A stretch of DNA of 64,000 nucleotides, taken from Hyphomicrobiales bacterium (GTDB lineage: Bacteria > Pseudomonadota > Alphaproteobacteria > Rhizobiales > Beijerinckiaceae). Of this stretch, positions 1-6,769 are shown one piece after another. The notes beneath the pieces are model-generated. The model searched no databases and was not told where the DNA came from. It was given only the letters and a program-made list of their open reading frames with translations. How positions within the stretch are numbered: position 1 is the stretch's first letter; each line of letters starts with the position of its first letter. Position numbers and translations under genes: made by a program. Where the stretch lies: the NCBI GenBank assembly GCA_900470775.1, contig UCBZ01000040.1:124295-188294 (forward strand), read 5' to 3'.

Positions 1-1184
1 TGCTGGTAGGACAACTTCGCGGCCGAGCGCATCAGGATGCGGTGGAAAGAGTGGCTCTTCTTCGAGCCGTCCGCCTTGAGCACGAGCCTGACCGCCAGTG
101 CCGGCCGGTCTTCGCCCTCGCGCAGCGAGCATAGATCGTTGGAGATGCGCTCGGGCAGCATCGGCACGACGCGATCGGGAAAGTAGACCGAGTTGCCGCG
201 CTCGAGCGCCTCCCTGTCCAGCGATGACCCCGGCAGGACATAGGCTGCGACATCGGCGATCGCGACCGTGACGACATGGCCGCCGGGATTGTCGGGATCG
301 TCGTCGGGCGCGGCATGGACCGCGTCGTCATGATCCTTGGCGTCGGCCGGGTCGATCGTGATCAGGGCTAAGTCGCGCCAGTCCTCGCGTCCCGCCGTGC
401 CGGCCGGCTTGACGGCATCCGCCTCGGCGATCGTCGCCGGCTGGAAGACGTTCGGGATGCCATGAGCATGGATCGCGATCAGGCTGACGGCGCGCTCCGA
501 TTTCAGCGAGCCCAGCCGCTCGCGCACCTGCGCCTCAGGTGGGCCAAAGCGGCTCTCGCTGCGCAGTGCGACAGAGACGAGATCGCCATCCTCGGCACCG
601 CCGGTCTGGCCCTTGGGGATCAGCGCTTCGCGCCCTTGCGCTTTCTTGTCGATCGGGATCAGCCGGCCCGAGCCGTCGGGGAGGGCGCGGAAGATGCCGA
701 GCACCTGGGCCTTGCCCTTGCCCATCACCTTCAGCACGCGGCCGGAATAGGAATAGCCGTCGACGCCTTTGAGGCGTGTCAGCTTGAGCAGGACCTGGTC
801 GCCGATACCCGGCGCCGGGGCGGCATGGCGCTTGGCCCGGAATTCGCGCTGGCGCTCGATCAGGATCTTCGGCGGCGTGCCCTGATCGGCCTCGTTCCAC
901 TCCAGCGGCGCGGCGTAAGGGTCGCCGTCGCGGTCCTTGCCCTTGATCTCGCAGAGCAGCACCGGCGGCAGCACGCCGCGCGGATGCACCGGCCGCTCGA
1001 CGCCGTCGCCGCCGGTCTCGCCCTCTTCCTCGAGGTCCTTGAGGAGGCGCTTCAGCCAGATCTTGCCGCCGCCCGACAGACCGAAAGCCTTGGCGATCTC
1101 GCGGCGGCCGACCTCGCGCCCGGCCTGCCGCTCGGATTCGATGAAGTCGAGGATCGCCTCGCGGCTTGGTTCAGGCGCGGACAA
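1..1184 (-). CDS. rnr: Ribonuclease R, N-terminal part (gene runs off the left edge)
   Basis: Processive 3'-to-5' exoribonuclease of the RNB/RNase II family that degrades structured RNA, including rRNA and mRNA decay intermediates. About 394 codons are inside the window. The minus-strand frame reads through an N-terminal winged-helix region (PSREAILDFI, REIAKAFGL), the OB-fold region, HGIPNVFQPATIAEAD, and the RNB active-site acidic cluster (DPADAKDHDDAV, near positions 318-353). The in-frame stop upstream leaves TTG at 1184 as the best start, giving MSAPEPSREAILDF, which begins where related proteins begin. The start overlaps the end of a 17-codon ORF in another frame (1221-1171), so translational coupling is possible. 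The C-terminal S1 domain is outside the window. Confidence 0.92.
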   Translation of the reverse strand, partial: MSAPEPSREAILDFIESERQAGREVGRREIAKAFGLSGGGKIWLKRLLKDLEEEGETGGDGVERPVHPRGVLPPVLLCEIKGKDRDGDPYAAPLEWNEADQGTPPKILIERQREFRAKRHAAPAPGIGDQVLLKLTRLKGVDGYSYSGRVLKVMGKGKAQVLGIFRALPDGSGRLIPIDKKAQGREALIPKGQTGGAEDGDLVSVALRSESRFGPPEAQVRERLGSLKSERAVSLIAIHAHGIPNVFQPATIAEADAVKPAGTAGREDWRDLALITIDPADAKDHDDAVHAAPDDDPDNPGGHVVTVAIADVAAYVLPGSSLDREALERGNSVYFPDRVVPMLPERISNDLCSLREGEDRPALAVRLVLKADGSKKSHSFHRILMRSAAKLSYQ

Positions 1185-1290: not shown

Positions 1291-1326
1291 AAAAGAAAGA
1301 AGGGCCGCCCTTTCGGACAGCCCTTC
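1291..1326 (-). terminator. Intrinsic terminator between the small leader ORF and rnr
   Basis: Read on the minus strand, 1326-1299 can fold into a 12-pair stem (three of the pairs G-U) capped by a GAAA tetraloop, followed by TTTCTTTT at 1298-1291. It lies after the 25-codon ORF and about 105 bases before the rnr start, so it either ends a separate short transcript or acts as an attenuator of rnr. Confidence 0.8.
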
Positions 1327-1373
1327 CATTGTCGAACCGCAGCCCCGGTAACCGGGCCTGAAGATTCAAAAGC

Positions 1374-1451
1374 TCACGCGGAACAAGACCCCCACTTGGA
1401 AAGAGTCCAGGTCCACCCGCTTTGAACCAGCGGCTGATGACAATGAGACAC
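1374..1451 (-). CDS. 25-codon ORF behind a full-length Shine-Dalgarno; leader peptide or small protein, function unknown
   Basis: GTG start at 1451, TGA at 1374-1376. The deduced peptide begins (M)SHCHQPLVQSGWTWTL and is rich in Ser, Trp (3), Cys (2) and His (2). Directly upstream, GAAAGGAGGTGATCC (1468-1454) is complementary to the entire 3' tail of alphaproteobacterial 16S rRNA, with a 7-base spacer from AGGAGG to GTG. A TTGACA lies about 65 bases upstream, a small CCCGG/CCGGG hairpin follows near 1346-1361, and then the strong terminator at 1291-1326. This resembles a discrete transcription unit of about 200 nt or a leader-peptide attenuator for rnr. I do not recognise the peptide. An overlapping longer frame starting at 1459 runs across the terminator and is less plausible. 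Confidence 0.45.
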   Translation of the reverse strand: MSHCHQPLVQSGWTWTLSKWGSCSA

Positions 1452-1493
1452 TGGATCACCTCCTTTCAGTTGTTACCGACAAGATCAGGCTAG

Positions 1494-1522
1494 GGCGATT
1501 CTCGGCCCCGCGTAAATGTCAA
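1494..1522 (-). promoter_or_regulatory. Candidate sigma-70 promoter for the rnr leader unit
   Basis: A consensus TTGACA -35 box lies on the minus strand at 1522-1517. Seventeen bases downstream is ATCGCC (1499-1494), a poor -10 of the kind common in GC-rich alphaproteobacteria. Transcription from here would begin about 35 bases before the GTG at 1451. Confidence 0.35.
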
Positions 1523-1835: not shown

Positions 1836-3122
1836 ATGTCCGTGAACACCACACGTCGCGTTATTTTGGGCGCCGCTCTCGCGGGCGCCACTGTTCTGGG
1901 CTCCTACCTGCCGGCAGCGGCGCAGGAGACCATCAAGGTCGGCATCCTCCACTCGCTCTCGGGCACGATGGCGATTTCCGAGACGACGTTGAAGGACGTC
2001 ATGCTCATGCTCATCGACGAGCAGAATAAGAAGGGCGGCGTGCTCGGCAAGAAGCTCGAGGCCGTCGTGGTCGATCCCGCTTCCAACTGGCCGCTCTTCG
2101 CCGAGAAGGCCCGCGAGCTGATCACCAAGGACAAGGTCTCGGCCGTGTTCGGCTGCTGGACATCGGTCTCGCGCAAGTCGGTCCTGCCGGTCTTCAAGGA
2201 GCTGAACTCGATCCTGTTCTACCCCGTCCAGTACGAGGGCGAGGAGAGCGAGCGCAACGTGTTCTACACCGGCGCAGCCCCGAACCAGCAGGCCATTCCC
2301 GCGGTCGACTATCTCGCCAAGGAGGAGAAGGTCCAGCGCTGGGTCCTCGCCGGCACCGACTACGTCTATCCGCGCACGACCAACAAGGTCCTCGAGGCCT
2401 ATCTGAAGTCCAAGGGCGTCAAGTCCGAGGACATCATGATCAACTACACGCCGTTCGGTCATTCCGACTGGCAGACGATCGTCTCCGACATCAAGAAGTT
2501 CGGCACCGCCGGCAAGAAGACCGCCGTGGTCTCGACCATCAACGGTGACGCCAACGTGCCGTTCTACAAGGAACTCGGCAACCAGGGCGTCAAGGCGACC
2601 GACATCCCGGTCGTGGCGTTCTCGGTCGGCGAGGAAGAGCTCGCCGGCATCGACACCAAGCCGCTGCTCGGCCATCTCGCCGCGTGGAACTACTTCCAGT
2701 CGGTCAAGACGCCCGAGAACGAGGCCTTCATCAAGCAGTGGAAGGCCTACAAGAAGAACGACAAGGCCGTCACCAACGACCCGATGGAGGCCCATGTCAT
2801 CGGCTTCGCCATGTGGGTGAAGGCCGTCGAGAAGGCCAAGAGCTTCGATCCCGACAAGGTCATCGACGCCCTGCCGGGCATCGAGGCGCCGAACCTGACC
2901 GGCGGCATCTCGAAGATGCTTCCGAACCACCACATCACCAAGCCTGTCCTGATCGGCGAGATCAAGGCCGACGGCCAGTTCGACGTGGTCTCCAAGACCG
3001 GTCTCGTCGCCGGCGACGCCTGGTCCAAGGAGCTCGACGGCTCGAAGGACCTGATCGGCGACTGGGTCGAGAAGAAGTGCGGCAACTTCAACGTCAAGAC
3101 CGGCAAGTGCGGCGGCGCGTGA
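1836..3122 (+). CDS. urtA: Urea ABC transporter substrate-binding protein UrtA
   Basis: Periplasmic urea receptor of the UrtABCDE high-affinity transporter, 428 aa, Peripla_BP/LivJ-like fold. The ATG at 1836 is preceded by GGGGGA. The leader contains TTRR (5-8), then a hydrophobic stretch and an AAAQ cleavage region near residue 30, so export by Sec or possibly Tat. The mature part starts ETIKVGILHSLSGTMA, the typical UrtA beginning, and includes FGCWTSVSRKSVLPV and LFYPVQYEGEE. It is the first gene of the operon, behind a sigma-54 promoter. Two stable hairpins follow it, as often seen after binding-protein genes that must be made in excess of the permease. Confidence 0.93.
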   Translation: MSVNTTRRVILGAALAGATVLGSYLPAAAQETIKVGILHSLSGTMAISETTLKDVMLMLIDEQNKKGGVLGKKLEAVVVDPASNWPLFAEKARELITKDKVSAVFGCWTSVSRKSVLPVFKELNSILFYPVQYEGEESERNVFYTGAAPNQQAIPAVDYLAKEEKVQRWVLAGTDYVYPRTTNKVLEAYLKSKGVKSEDIMINYTPFGHSDWQTIVSDIKKFGTAGKKTAVVSTINGDANVPFYKELGNQGVKATDIPVVAFSVGEEELAGIDTKPLLGHLAAWNYFQSVKTPENEAFIKQWKAYKKNDKAVTNDPMEAHVIGFAMWVKAVEKAKSFDPDKVIDALPGIEAPNLTGGISKMLPNHHITKPVLIGEIKADGQFDVVSKTGLVAGDAWSKELDGSKDLIGDWVEKKCGNFNVKTGKCGGA

Positions 3123-3134
3123 GGATTTGAGGGG

Positions 3135-3210
3135 GAGGGACGACACGGGCTCATAACACCCGGCCGTCCCTCGAATTCCGACGACGCCCCCGGCCCTGTG
3201 CCGGGGGCGT
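3135..3210 (+). other. Tandem stable hairpins between urtA and urtB
   Basis: First stem: GAGGGACG (3135-3142) with CGTCCCTC (3165-3172) plus an inner CGGG/CCCG. Second: a perfect 11-pair stem, ACGCCCCCGGC (3184-3194) with GCCGGGGGCGT (3200-3210) and a 5-base loop. No T-tract follows. They probably stabilise the urtA 3' end or give partial read-through, keeping binding protein in excess. The function is inferred. Confidence 0.55.
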
Positions 3211-3261
3211 TCGACACCGCCGATCTACGAAGCCGCCGACCTGCAAACCCGAAACGAGCCC

Positions 3262-4863
3262 ATGCGGATTGTGTCCTGCCTTCTGCGCATGATTGCGCTC
3301 GCGACGCTGCTTGCGCTCCAGCCGGGCGCGGCAGCCGCCCAGAGTGCCGATGAAGCCTTCACCAGGCTCGGTGCCGACAGTTTCTCCGATACCAACCGGG
3401 CGATCGAACTGCTGATCGCGAACGCTCATCCGCAGGCCGCACCGATCATCGAAGCCCTGGCCGCCGGCCGGCTGCTGGCGGGCGGCGGCGCGGTCGTCAT
3501 CAAGACGACAGACGGCAAATTTCTCGACGCCAGGACAGGCGCTGCCCTGCCCGCCGAGTCCCCTGGGCTCGCTCCGGTTCGCCTGAACAACGGTGTCCGC
3601 CGCAACATTCAGGCCGCGCTCGGCGGTCTCGGCCTGCTCAATCCCGACGCTGGCAAGCGCATCGCCGCGGCCGAGGCGGTCTTCAAGTCGCGTGACGTGG
3701 CGCTGCTGCCGGTGCTGGAAGGTGCGATTGCCAAGGAGACCGACGCCAGGGCCAAGGCCGCGTTGCGCCAGGCCCAGGCTGCGATCCTCGTCGCCAAACC
3801 CGACGCCCCGCCCTTCGACCGGATTGCCGCCATCGACGTGCTGCGCGAGCGCGGCGACCAGGATGCGCTCGCCACCCTGCGCTCACTGCCCGCTGACTCC
3901 TCCCCCGCGTTGAAGGAGGCCCAGTCCCGCGCCGTCTCGGCCATCGAGGGCAAGCTCGCCGTCTGGCGCGCCGGCCAGAACCTCTGGTACGGCCTCTCGC
4001 TCGGCTCCGTGCTGCTGCTGGCGGCGATCGGGCTGGCCATCACCTTCGGCGTGATGGGCGTGATCAACATGGCCCATGGCGAGATGGTGATGCTCGGGGC
4101 CTACACCACCTTCATCGTGCAGGAGATCATCCGCACGCGCTTTCCCGGCCTGTTCGACTATTCGCTGCTGATCGCCGTGCCGCTCGCCTTCATGGTGGCC
4201 GGCCTCGTCGGCATCGCCATCGAGCGTGGCGTCATCCGCTTCCTCTATGGCCGGCCGCTGGAGACGCTGCTCGCCACCTGGGGCATCAGCCTGATCCTGC
4301 AGCAGGCGGTGCGCACGGCTTTTGGGCCGACCAACCGCGAAGTCGGTGCGCCGAACTTCATGTCCGGGGCCTTCGAGATCGGCCAGCTCGCCATCACCTG
4401 GAACCGGCTCTGGATCATCGTCTTCGCGGGCCTCGTCTTCGCTGCCCTGCTGGCGATCCTGAAGCTGACGCCGATCGGCCTGCAGATGCGCGCCGTGACC
4501 CAGAACCGCCGCATGGCCTCGGCCATGGGCATCCGCACCGGCCGCGTCGATGCGCTGACCTTTGGGCTCGGCTCCGGTGTTGCGGGGTTGGCCGGCGTCG
4601 CGCTCTCACAGATCGACAATGTCAGCCCCAATCTCGGCCAGAGCTACATCATCGATAGCTTCATGGTCGTGGTCTTCGGCGGCGTCGGCAATCTCTGGGG
4701 CACGCTGATCAGCGCGATGACGCTGGGCGTCGCCAACAAGCTTCTCGAACCCTATGCCGGTGCAGTGCTCGGCAAGATCGCGCTGCTTGTCTTCATCATC
4801 CTCTTCATCCAGAAGCGCCCGCGCGGCCTGTTCGCGCTCAAGGGCAGGGCGGTGGAAGCATGA
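3262..4863 (+). CDS. urtB: Urea ABC transporter permease UrtB
   Basis: Inner-membrane permease, LivH/BPD_transp_2 family, 533 aa. Residues 1-27 are a signal-like segment ending AAAAQ. Residues about 28-240 form a soluble helical region peculiar to UrtB-type permeases. The multi-spanning domain starts near residue 244 and carries the family segment FGVMGVINMAHGEMVMLGAY and the C-terminal VVVFGGVGNLWGT loop that contacts the ATPases. It follows urtA by 139 bases and overlaps urtC by 4 bases (ATGA), implying translational coupling. Confidence 0.93.
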   Translation: MRIVSCLLRMIALATLLALQPGAAAAQSADEAFTRLGADSFSDTNRAIELLIANAHPQAAPIIEALAAGRLLAGGGAVVIKTTDGKFLDARTGAALPAESPGLAPVRLNNGVRRNIQAALGGLGLLNPDAGKRIAAAEAVFKSRDVALLPVLEGAIAKETDARAKAALRQAQAAILVAKPDAPPFDRIAAIDVLRERGDQDALATLRSLPADSSPALKEAQSRAVSAIEGKLAVWRAGQNLWYGLSLGSVLLLAAIGLAITFGVMGVINMAHGEMVMLGAYTTFIVQEIIRTRFPGLFDYSLLIAVPLAFMVAGLVGIAIERGVIRFLYGRPLETLLATWGISLILQQAVRTAFGPTNREVGAPNFMSGAFEIGQLAITWNRLWIIVFAGLVFAALLAILKLTPIGLQMRAVTQNRRMASAMGIRTGRVDALTFGLGSGVAGLAGVALSQIDNVSPNLGQSYIIDSFMVVVFGGVGNLWGTLISAMTLGVANKLLEPYAGAVLGKIALLVFIILFIQKRPRGLFALKGRAVEA

Positions 4864-5999
4864 TCTCGCGCTTCCTCCTGCAGAACATGGACAAGCGGGG
4901 ATATGTCTTCCTCGCCCTCGTCGCCGCCATCGGCATCTTGGTGCCGCTGCTCAACCTCTTGATGCCGGTAGGCTCGCTGTTCCACGTTCCGACCTCGACC
5001 ATGTCGCTCTGGGGCAAATATCTCTGCTACGCCCTGCTGGCGATCTCTCTCGACCTAGTTTGGGGCTATTGCGGCATCCTTTCGCTTGGCCACGGCGCCT
5101 TCTTCGCGCTCGGCGGCTATGCGATGGGCATGTATCTGATGCGCCAGATCGGCTCGCGCGGCACCTATGGCAACCCGGTGCTGCCCGATTTCATGGTCTT
5201 CCTGAACTGGCAGGAGCTGCCCTGGTACTGGTACGGCTTCTCCTCCTTCCCCTTCGCCATGCTGATGGTGCTGCTCGCGCCCGGCCTGCTCGCCTTCGTC
5301 TTCGGCTGGTTCGCCTTCCGCTCGCGCGTCACCGGCGTCTATCTCTCGATCATCACCCAGGCGCTGACCTATGCGCTGCTGCTCGCCTTTTTCCGCAACG
5401 ACATGGGCTTCGGCGGCAATAACGGCCTGACCGATTTCAAGGACATCCTTGGCTTCAACGTCCAGGCGCAGACGACTCGCGCTGCTCTGTTTTCGATGAC
5501 CTGCGTCATGTTGATCGCCGGCTTCCTGATCGCGCGCGGCATCGTCGTGTCGAAGCTCGGCAAGGTGGTGATCGCGATCCGCGACGCGGAGTCGCGCACC
5601 CGCTTCCTCGGCTACCGGGTCGATCGCTTCAAGCTCTTCGTCTTCACCGTCTCGGCCTGTATGGCCGGTGTGGCGGGCGCGCTCTACGTCCCCCAGGTCG
5701 GCATCATCAACCCCAGCGAATTCGCCCCGGCGAACTCGATCGAGACCGTGATCTGGGTCGCCGTCGGCGGACGCGGCACGCTGGTCGGCGCCGCGCTCGG
5801 CGCCGTCGTCGTCAACTATGCCAAGACGGTGTTCACCTCGGGCTTCATGGCGCCGTACTGGCTGTTCGCGCTCGGCGCGCTCTTCGTCTTCGTCACGATC
5901 TTCATGCCCAAGGGCATCATCGGCACGGCGCGCGAACTCTGGGAAAAGCGCCGCAAGCCAGCGCCCACCGTCACTCCCGAACCGGCCCCGGCGGAGTGA
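4860..5999 (+). CDS. urtC: Urea ABC transporter permease UrtC
   Basis: Second inner-membrane permease of the urea transporter (LivM/BPD_transp_2 family), 379 aa, about ten membrane segments. It shows the LivM-like LSLGHGAFFALGGYAMGMY motif and a C-terminal cytoplasmic loop, ETVIWVAVGGRGTLVGAALG, for ATPase contact, then a short Pro/Ala-rich tail. The start overlaps the urtB stop (ATGA) and the stop abuts urtD. Confidence 0.93.
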   Translation: MISRFLLQNMDKRGYVFLALVAAIGILVPLLNLLMPVGSLFHVPTSTMSLWGKYLCYALLAISLDLVWGYCGILSLGHGAFFALGGYAMGMYLMRQIGSRGTYGNPVLPDFMVFLNWQELPWYWYGFSSFPFAMLMVLLAPGLLAFVFGWFAFRSRVTGVYLSIITQALTYALLLAFFRNDMGFGGNNGLTDFKDILGFNVQAQTTRAALFSMTCVMLIAGFLIARGIVVSKLGKVVIAIRDAESRTRFLGYRVDRFKLFVFTVSACMAGVAGALYVPQVGIINPSEFAPANSIETVIWVAVGGRGTLVGAALGAVVVNYAKTVFTSGFMAPYWLFALGALFVFVTIFMPKGIIGTARELWEKRRKPAPTVTPEPAPAE

Positions 6000-6004
6000 C
6001 TGTC

Positions 6005-6765
<761 letters not shown>

Positions 6766-6769
<4 letters not shown>

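Follow-up and report, generated by a model that had tools for sequence, protein, structure and literature searches.

The window, by which we mean the whole stretch of 64,000 nt that was analyzed, carries a compact minus-strand element in which every part named by the original prediction was located (TTGACA, Shine-Dalgarno sequence, GTG, 25-codon ORF, and a terminator with GAAA loop and U-run). The features of the locus are as follows.

3..1184, minus strand: N-terminal part of rnr (RNase R), the downstream neighbor, assigned by Pfam RNB (1.9e-41) and synteny.
1298..1327, minus strand: intrinsic terminator with GAAA loop and U-run, identified by terminator scan and fold and conserved in the genus.
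1301..1475, minus strand: the whole RNA, a match to RF01867 (CC2171) by cmscan (88.2 bits, gathering threshold 75, E 8.7e-17, model positions 1-159).
1326..1333, minus strand: 3' strand of the predicted P1 helix, GACAAUGG, at the foot of the terminator.
1374..1451, minus strand: short ORF MSHCHQPLVQSGWTWTLSKWGSCSA, with a GTG start at 1451-1449 and 25 codons plus TGA.
1398..1411, minus strand: CCUGGACUCUUUCC, within the ORF, a possible degenerate 16S-tail copy (pseudo-anti-SD), its position matching that of the family site.
1439..1446, minus strand: 5' strand of the predicted P1 helix, UCAUUGUC, which is codons 2-5.
1451..1467, minus strand: extended Shine-Dalgarno sequence (SD) GAAAGGAGGTGATCCAG, complementary over 17 nt to the 16S 3' tail.
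1467-1453, minus strand: the SD 15-mer GAAAGGAGGTGATCC, as read in the window sequence.
1468..1475, minus strand: A-rich 5' leader TAACAACT (family consensus CAACAAYY), from column counts over 124 clusters and from alignments A1 and A2.
1488..1516, minus strand: probable promoter, TTTACG (1516-1511), 17 nt, CTAGCC (1493-1488), its role suggested by own-genus conservation.
1522-1517, minus strand: TTGACA.

Elsewhere in the window, positions 1837-6769 hold a divergent cluster that reads as a substrate-binding protein, two permeases and an ATPase, a putative urea-type ABC transporter (urt).

The minus strand from 1475 to 1301 is a full-length member of RF01867, the Caulobacter sRNA CC2171, scoring 88.2 bits against a cut-off of 75. 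The SD 15-mer occurs once in the 5.55-Mb source assembly (reversed control, 0), and the whole RNA folds at -83 kcal/mol compared to a mean of -64.8 in dinucleotide shuffles, exceeding 200 of 200 (z -4.31). Because the 15-mer is unique, the fold surpasses the shuffles and an Rfam family is matched, the element is more than a chance arrangement; it is real, and a member of a known sRNA family. A weak match to BjrC1505 (19 bits, cut-off 50) was set aside. In the predicted fold, codons 2-5 are closed with the foot of the terminator (CAUUGUC/GACAAUG), followed by a branched middle and a terminator of 12 pairs with a GAAA loop; the terminator scan counts 13 pairs in the same stem. We would expect an autonomous transcript of about 180 nt, which, like its translation, is predicted here from sequence. 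Among 31 own-genus sequences, the majority-base frequency was 0.995 across the leader, SD and first eight codons, 0.78 in codons 9-25, 0.95 across the P1 3' strand and terminator, and 0.62-0.54 past the terminator.

The 16S gene ends in ...CTGCGGCTGGATCACCTCCTTTCT in three same-genus genomes (the pattern was found in 3 of 16), and therefore GAAAGGAGGTGATCCAG is complementary to the 16S tail over 17 nt (1467-1451), the G of the start codon included. The complementarity to the 16S tail originally claimed for the SD was thus confirmed with a tail taken from those three genomes; no 16S gene was detectable in the source assembly. In the RF01867 alignment, upper-case consensus letters run longest over GAAAGGAGGUGAUCCAGUGUCUCAU, which covers the SD, the start codon and codons 2-3. 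Across our loci the conservation of SD and start is partly by construction, the loci having been gathered with the Rfam model and with patterns that contain both. Eleven other SD-like sites of the genus (nine with GGAGGTGATCCAGTG, two with variants) were fetched as possible second copies and rejected. The open frame around ten of them runs to 363-667 codons, as read in stretches of 1.7-2 kb, and that around L128 to 230 codons; from the open frames alone they look like interiors of coding genes, and they were excluded from every count.

The consensus TTGACA of the original prediction is present at 1522-1517, but does not stand as a conserved promoter box. It was found in just 10 of 31 own-genus upstream stretches and is too distant from the -10-like box, compared to 29 of 31 for TTTACG; TAGCC was likewise found in 29 of 31, and CTAGCC exactly in 16. 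A consensus scan of the upstream stretch for a sigma-70 promoter gave no match.

At E <= 0.001, RF01867 matched 47 of 61 relatives, 35 of 60 genomes in the family search and 94 of 387 genomes of the class, with 35, 20 and 15 of these matches, respectively, above the Rfam cut-off. The wider family is mostly under that cut-off (15 of the 94 matching class genomes pass). The exact 20-base ribosome-binding module AAAGGAGGTGRTCNNNTGTC was present in 95 of the 387 alphaproteobacterial genomes and its reversed pattern in none. In a phylum sample of 377 genomes, it was present in 81 of 151 alphaproteobacteria and in 0 of 226 other Pseudomonadota (hand count from the table). A pattern one base off matched Microvirga massiliensis, Sphingobium bisphenolivorans, Polymorphobacter multimanifer and Sphingomonas montanisoli. 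One of 14 control genomes matched RF01867, namely Caulobacter vibrioides. When 60 weaker or unlisted matches were read, an SD close to GGAGGTGRTC was found near the expected place in 57, and in most of these RTGTC, or something close to it, comes next with a short ORF, while the P1 strand pair is often a different one; in the remaining three (L161, L162, L185) the script found no SD. Twenty loci, mostly diverged members, matched no Rfam family at gathering. Taken from the sequences, the best if still tentative explanation is that RF01867 sits in a wider alphaproteobacterial family whose small RNAs are translated.

For the analyses below, 206 distinct instances were clustered to 152 (an earlier set of 173 to 124; a later locus makes 207). 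L222, whose module lies at the end of a contig, was left out as too short. Copy number is mostly one per genome; G410, G417, G287 and G070 each have two or three matches, and G025, a small own-genus genome, has no RF01867 match. Mobile spread was considered and rejected, no phage match being obtained; the single plasmid match, a short one covering 22 per cent of the query, fell in a 2.8-Mb replicon of Methylobacterium bullatum, unannotated at that place.

Within the reach of the flanks, about 1.5 kb, rnr was present at 30 of 30 own-genus loci and at 0 of 56 others; with more own-genus loci the count was 35 of 37, and still none outside the genus. The expected co-location with rnr therefore holds in the window's genus and is absent beyond it, where rnr is not part of the element. 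The own-genus L176 and L177 retain the element with no rnr within the flanks examined. Using a crude ORF caller, the largest recurring neighbor cluster among 124 element clusters had four members, and the next ORF ran in the same direction in 57, in the opposite direction in 66 and was absent in 1. On synteny, an rnr attenuator was rejected for the family, contrary to the coupling of rnr to translation that had been suggested, and it is scarcely credible that the element attenuates rnr in cis through translation within this one genus: rnr does adjoin the element at those 35 of 37 loci and here lies downstream on the same strand, but it is found at none of the 56 loci beyond the genus, the terminator ends about 114 nt before it and the family shares no neighbors. 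The predicted fold has the terminator formed, and no antiterminator was noticed in that fold. The alternative suggestion of an independent sRNA gene was borne out as to autonomy: Rfam already knows it as an sRNA, it carries a terminator of its own, its neighbors differ across lineages and its ORF is under selection.

The ORF spans 14-36 codons in 148 of 152 clusters and 55-58 codons in the other four; none is shorter than 14. Frames +1 and +2 fell in the 14-36-codon range in only 40 of 147 and 44 of 145 clusters, and composition shuffles of the earlier cluster set did so in 37 per cent. Neither the Rfam model nor the patterns demand an open frame, and no instance was dropped for a missing stop. 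The first letter of the start codon, which was left free, was G in 111, A in 78, T in 6 and C in 0 of 195 distinct cases; codon 2 provides no evidence, as the instance pattern fixes the letters after it (TG, then T/C, C/G). All three stop codons are in use (68, 37 and 19 of 124), and hence no single fixed word marks where the ORF ends. In L137, L241, L193 and L196 the module stands ahead of the 55-58-codon ORFs, which by eye resemble exported proteins (signal-peptide-like start, cysteines); these may be separate genes using the same ribosome-binding site, and the four clusters were excluded from the structure tests.

The peptide behaves differently from the frame. Past codon 5, pN/pS was 1.00 over 50 disjoint close pairs (equal ORF length and 2-35 per cent divergence only), compared to 0.81 and 0.84 in the other frames, and differences by codon position numbered 116, 134 and 103. 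By group, the value was 0.62 in own-genus subtype A (12 pairs; other frames 1.14 and 0.96), 1.94 in subtype B (3 pairs), 1.51 in other MSH members (15 pairs) and 0.84 in the remaining members (17 pairs; other frames 0.64 and 0.87). The 31 own-genus sequences align within the ORF free of gaps, but the word CUGGACUC sits one base further downstream in subtype B (L011, SRGAHGLDSSHEGFGCA) than it does in subtype A (e.g. L005, VQGGRTWTHSLWGSCSA). The middle of the ORF thereby falls into another frame, with length and stop unchanged, and even within a single genus this compensated frameshift gives the peptide a different middle. Scans of five peptides against Pfam and NCBIfam gave no match.

The reading frame is under selection, and the peptide beyond codon 5 is without overall purifying selection. 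Of the small protein first proposed, the conserved frame stood and the peptide past its first codons did not; likewise, the synonymous-substitution bias sought was absent overall and seen in subtype A alone. That the 25-residue peptide is itself the product is very unlikely, for all that its frame is conserved, its ribosome-binding site is strong, the MSHC start is kept in one clade and subtype A stands below its other frames: the overall value of 1.00, those of 1.51 in other MSH members and 0.84 in the remainder, the frameshift and the unmatched peptides argue against it, and the MSHC codons are at the same time a strand of P1. Our best explanation so far, a tentative one, is that what is kept is translation as such and not the peptide made.

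We examined the pairing of codons 2-5 with the terminator foot across the family. In a swap test covering 161 of the 173 instances, which reduce to 55 distinct 5' strands, strands paired with their own partners at -8.06 kcal/mol compared to -5.38 with swapped ones (p 2e-8; clusters here and below are not phylogenetically independent). Cells with changes on both sides numbered 10 compared to 1.9 expected in alignment A1 (61 of 65 listed sequences; L062, L084, L085 and L099 were left out by eye) and 23 compared to 7.8 in A2 (30 of 68, from clade B, chosen by eye and mainly with a GAGCARCC-like motif), and 0 of 500 shuffles reached either count, with P1 columns counted from the same alignments that were tested. 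Two of five P1 measures on A2 did not stand out, namely the pairs showing both-side change (31 of 500 shuffles) and the pair types (90 of 500). Paired cells, at 92.8 and 87.3 per cent, dropped to 57 per cent or less when one strand was slid; in A1 a slide of -3 gave a covariation score of 0.122, nearly equal to the unslid 0.128. RNAalifold did not draw P1 on A2, the one alignment on which it was run. By these computations, codons 2-5 are predicted to pair with the terminator foot, and compensatory changes support the pairing.

RNAalifold on the same 30 selected clade-B sequences, the set that also gave the A2 covariation, paired the SD, GGAGGU..UCC, with a downstream GGAGCARCCUYC that resembles the 16S tail GGAUCACCUCC; eight of the nine pairs lacked change on both sides. 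Across the family, pairing of the 17-nt SD to the stretch from codon 8 to the terminator was stronger than in shuffles (-15.5 compared to -12.9; 119 of 138 clusters, p 1e-19). A 13-nt SD exceeded the shuffle mean in 109 of 138 clusters and failed to in 29. In 105 of 138 clusters, compared to 46 expected, the best site fell in the zone 12-42 nt ahead of the stop. The commonest distances to the stop with the 13-nt SD were 33 nt (21 clusters) and 14 and 25 nt (12 each); the end of a 16-nt window lies 9 nt from the stop in the 25-nt arrangement and 17 nt in the 33-nt arrangement. Cluster by cluster, the native pairing ranked with the best 1 of 30 shuffles in 33 of 138 and with the best 3 in 57 of 138. 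A reversed-SD control was also enriched, more weakly (-11.62 compared to -11.01, p 0.01; 76 sites in the zone compared to 46), and therefore part of this signal is local composition.

The flank of the SD and the internal site also vary together. CUGG was found in the zone in 54 of 66 clusters with CCAG after the SD compared to 20 of 82 without it (p 3e-12), and the association held inside the MSH clade (43 of 47 compared to 8 of 31); of six control words, five gave nothing and one p 0.03. Kinship among the clusters inflates the p-values given for the internal site. A GAGCARCCU-like motif 51-57 nt past the start was listed for 28 instances outside the MSHC clade, in frames 0, 1 and 2 for 18, 4 and 6 of them. 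In the window's genus the corresponding place holds CTGG in 28 of 31 sequences, CTGGAC in 26 and CTGGACTC in 14; CTGG survives the compensated frameshift, and the CUGG in CCUGGACUCUUUCC could pair with CCAG at 1454-1451. Pairing of the 17-nt SD was not significant in own-genus sequences, being equalled or exceeded by shuffles in 15 of 20 for L018, 15 of 20 for L002 and 9 of 20 for L011. As computed over the sequences, an SD-complementary site near the end of the ORF appears usual in the family, enriched and positioned.

Variants of the arrangement were observed. After the stop, L166, L293 and L294 have CCACCTCC, which copies the 16S tail almost exactly. In L083, L145, L285, L286 and L291 a 14-codon ORF ends CHLA..AR, and its codons include the SD-complementary UGUCACCUC.

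In folds of the whole RNA, the SD was more open than with shuffled downstream sequence (0.34 compared to 0.25 unpaired; 104 of 140 clusters). It was less than 0.3 unpaired in 45 of 140 clusters and near zero in a minority; in L165, L166 and L292-L295, one lineage with 18-codon ORFs (MSRKVLE-like), it was almost wholly masked in all six tested. The accessibility test covered 140 and the pairing test 138 of 148 clusters, the rest having no called terminator or too short a stretch.

This relative exposure bears on whether the RNA acts as a ribosome decoy, in which the extended SD would hold 30S subunits or 16S 3' ends by titration and the ORF would only let the ribosome leave. The 15-17 nt of complementarity to the 16S tail and the single occurrence of the 15-mer in the assembly also suit such a role. 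We consider it unlikely, since an RNA present mostly as a single gene copy would need very high abundance, and a decoy has no need for an ORF of 14-36 codons or for an internal site complementary to its SD.

A rather unlikely reading, though a slightly more probable one, is a trans-acting sRNA in which the C-rich motif of the ORF (CCUYC/GCCUC) would serve as an anti-SD-like seed, pairing with the SDs of other mRNAs and gated by the RNA's own translation. An A-rich 5' leader and an intrinsic terminator are typical of many sRNAs. The element has both, Rfam classes CC2171 as an sRNA, and the motif is kept at the RNA level across different reading frames; however, it varies together with the flank of its own SD, which argues for a partner in cis.

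The reading that we prefer, with a probability of roughly 45 per cent, is a self-masking, translation-gated RNA whose state follows ribosome availability. The SD at the 5' end would be offered to the ribosome with a 15-17-nt match to the 16S tail, followed by a start codon and an ORF of 14-36 codons whose codons 2-5 would be shut by the long-range P1 helix. In most lineages, a degenerate copy of the 16S tail shortly before the stop would pair with the RNA's own SD. When no ribosome is present, the RNA would close on itself, with P1 formed and the SD partly masked, and a 30S subunit would have to displace the internal copy from the SD. A ribosome reaching the stop would melt P1 and cover or open the copy, leaving the SD free for the next ribosome. 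The RNA would in this way flip between closed and translated states with ribosome availability; we infer both the flipping by translation and the sensing from the arrangement of the parts. Candidate outputs are RNA stability, release of a trans-pairing seed, or ribosome holding. A broader proposal, which we regard as doubtful, is that the family is a class-wide autonomous sensor of ribosome availability, built from a full-length SD and its own anti-SD copy within a short ORF, in which each translating ribosome would reopen the site for its successor, translation itself would be the signal and the output would be in trans or on the RNA's own stability.

The element shares with RF01867 a full-length match over gathering, the module, the P1 helix and the terminator. 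The Rfam entry is an sRNA gene, and the passage on it in the Rfam 15 paper, which reports the addition of one covarying pair, does not include the ORF, the absence of peptide selection or the SD-complementary site (PMC11701678). A parallel in idea comes from passages on the uORF in the Sinorhizobium meliloti duf1127_1 leader, in which the RNA and not the peptide matters, the RBS can pair with early codons, and a monitor of ribosome availability was proposed (PMC12218461). By description, the two are alike in the short ORF, the importance of RNA rather than peptide, and the ribosome-availability idea; they differ in that the uORF belongs to a leader attenuating a downstream gene, presumably via Rho, whereas in our element the terminator is intrinsic and the gene downstream is not constant. 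The dual-function attenuator sRNA rnTrpL/peTrpL is likewise a small RNA of Alphaproteobacteria whose short ORF is translated, but as excerpted its 14-codon ORF is leaderless, its peptide functional, and it is linked to trp genes (PMC10117765). Extended SD motifs of Staphylococcus aureus share the long SD-16S pairing, but are presented as a genome-wide feature of initiation and not as a dedicated small RNA (PMC13009471).

Translation of CC2171 may already lie within the dataset of Schrader 2014, where two previously predicted Caulobacter ncRNAs, left unnamed in the passages concerned, are stated to be translated (PMC4117421). A CC2171 match is listed in Mesorhizobium huakuii in an excerpt of PMC5596092, and nothing on CC2171 was found in the available portions of PMC5521070, PMC5082802 and PMC12559287. 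RF01867 is thus known from Caulobacter; in the open-licence literature searched, we found no account of a CC2171 ORF, of class-wide P1-ORF pairing or of the internal 16S copy, and these are undescribed there.

A family catalogued as non-coding keeps its reading frame across Alphaproteobacteria while its peptide drifts, an unusually clean split between being translated and making a protein. At the least, RF01867 merits a wider model and annotation of the ORF. If the self-masking reading is true, many bacteria, Caulobacter included, would possess a natural single-RNA reporter of free ribosomes, and the sensing would be directly testable.
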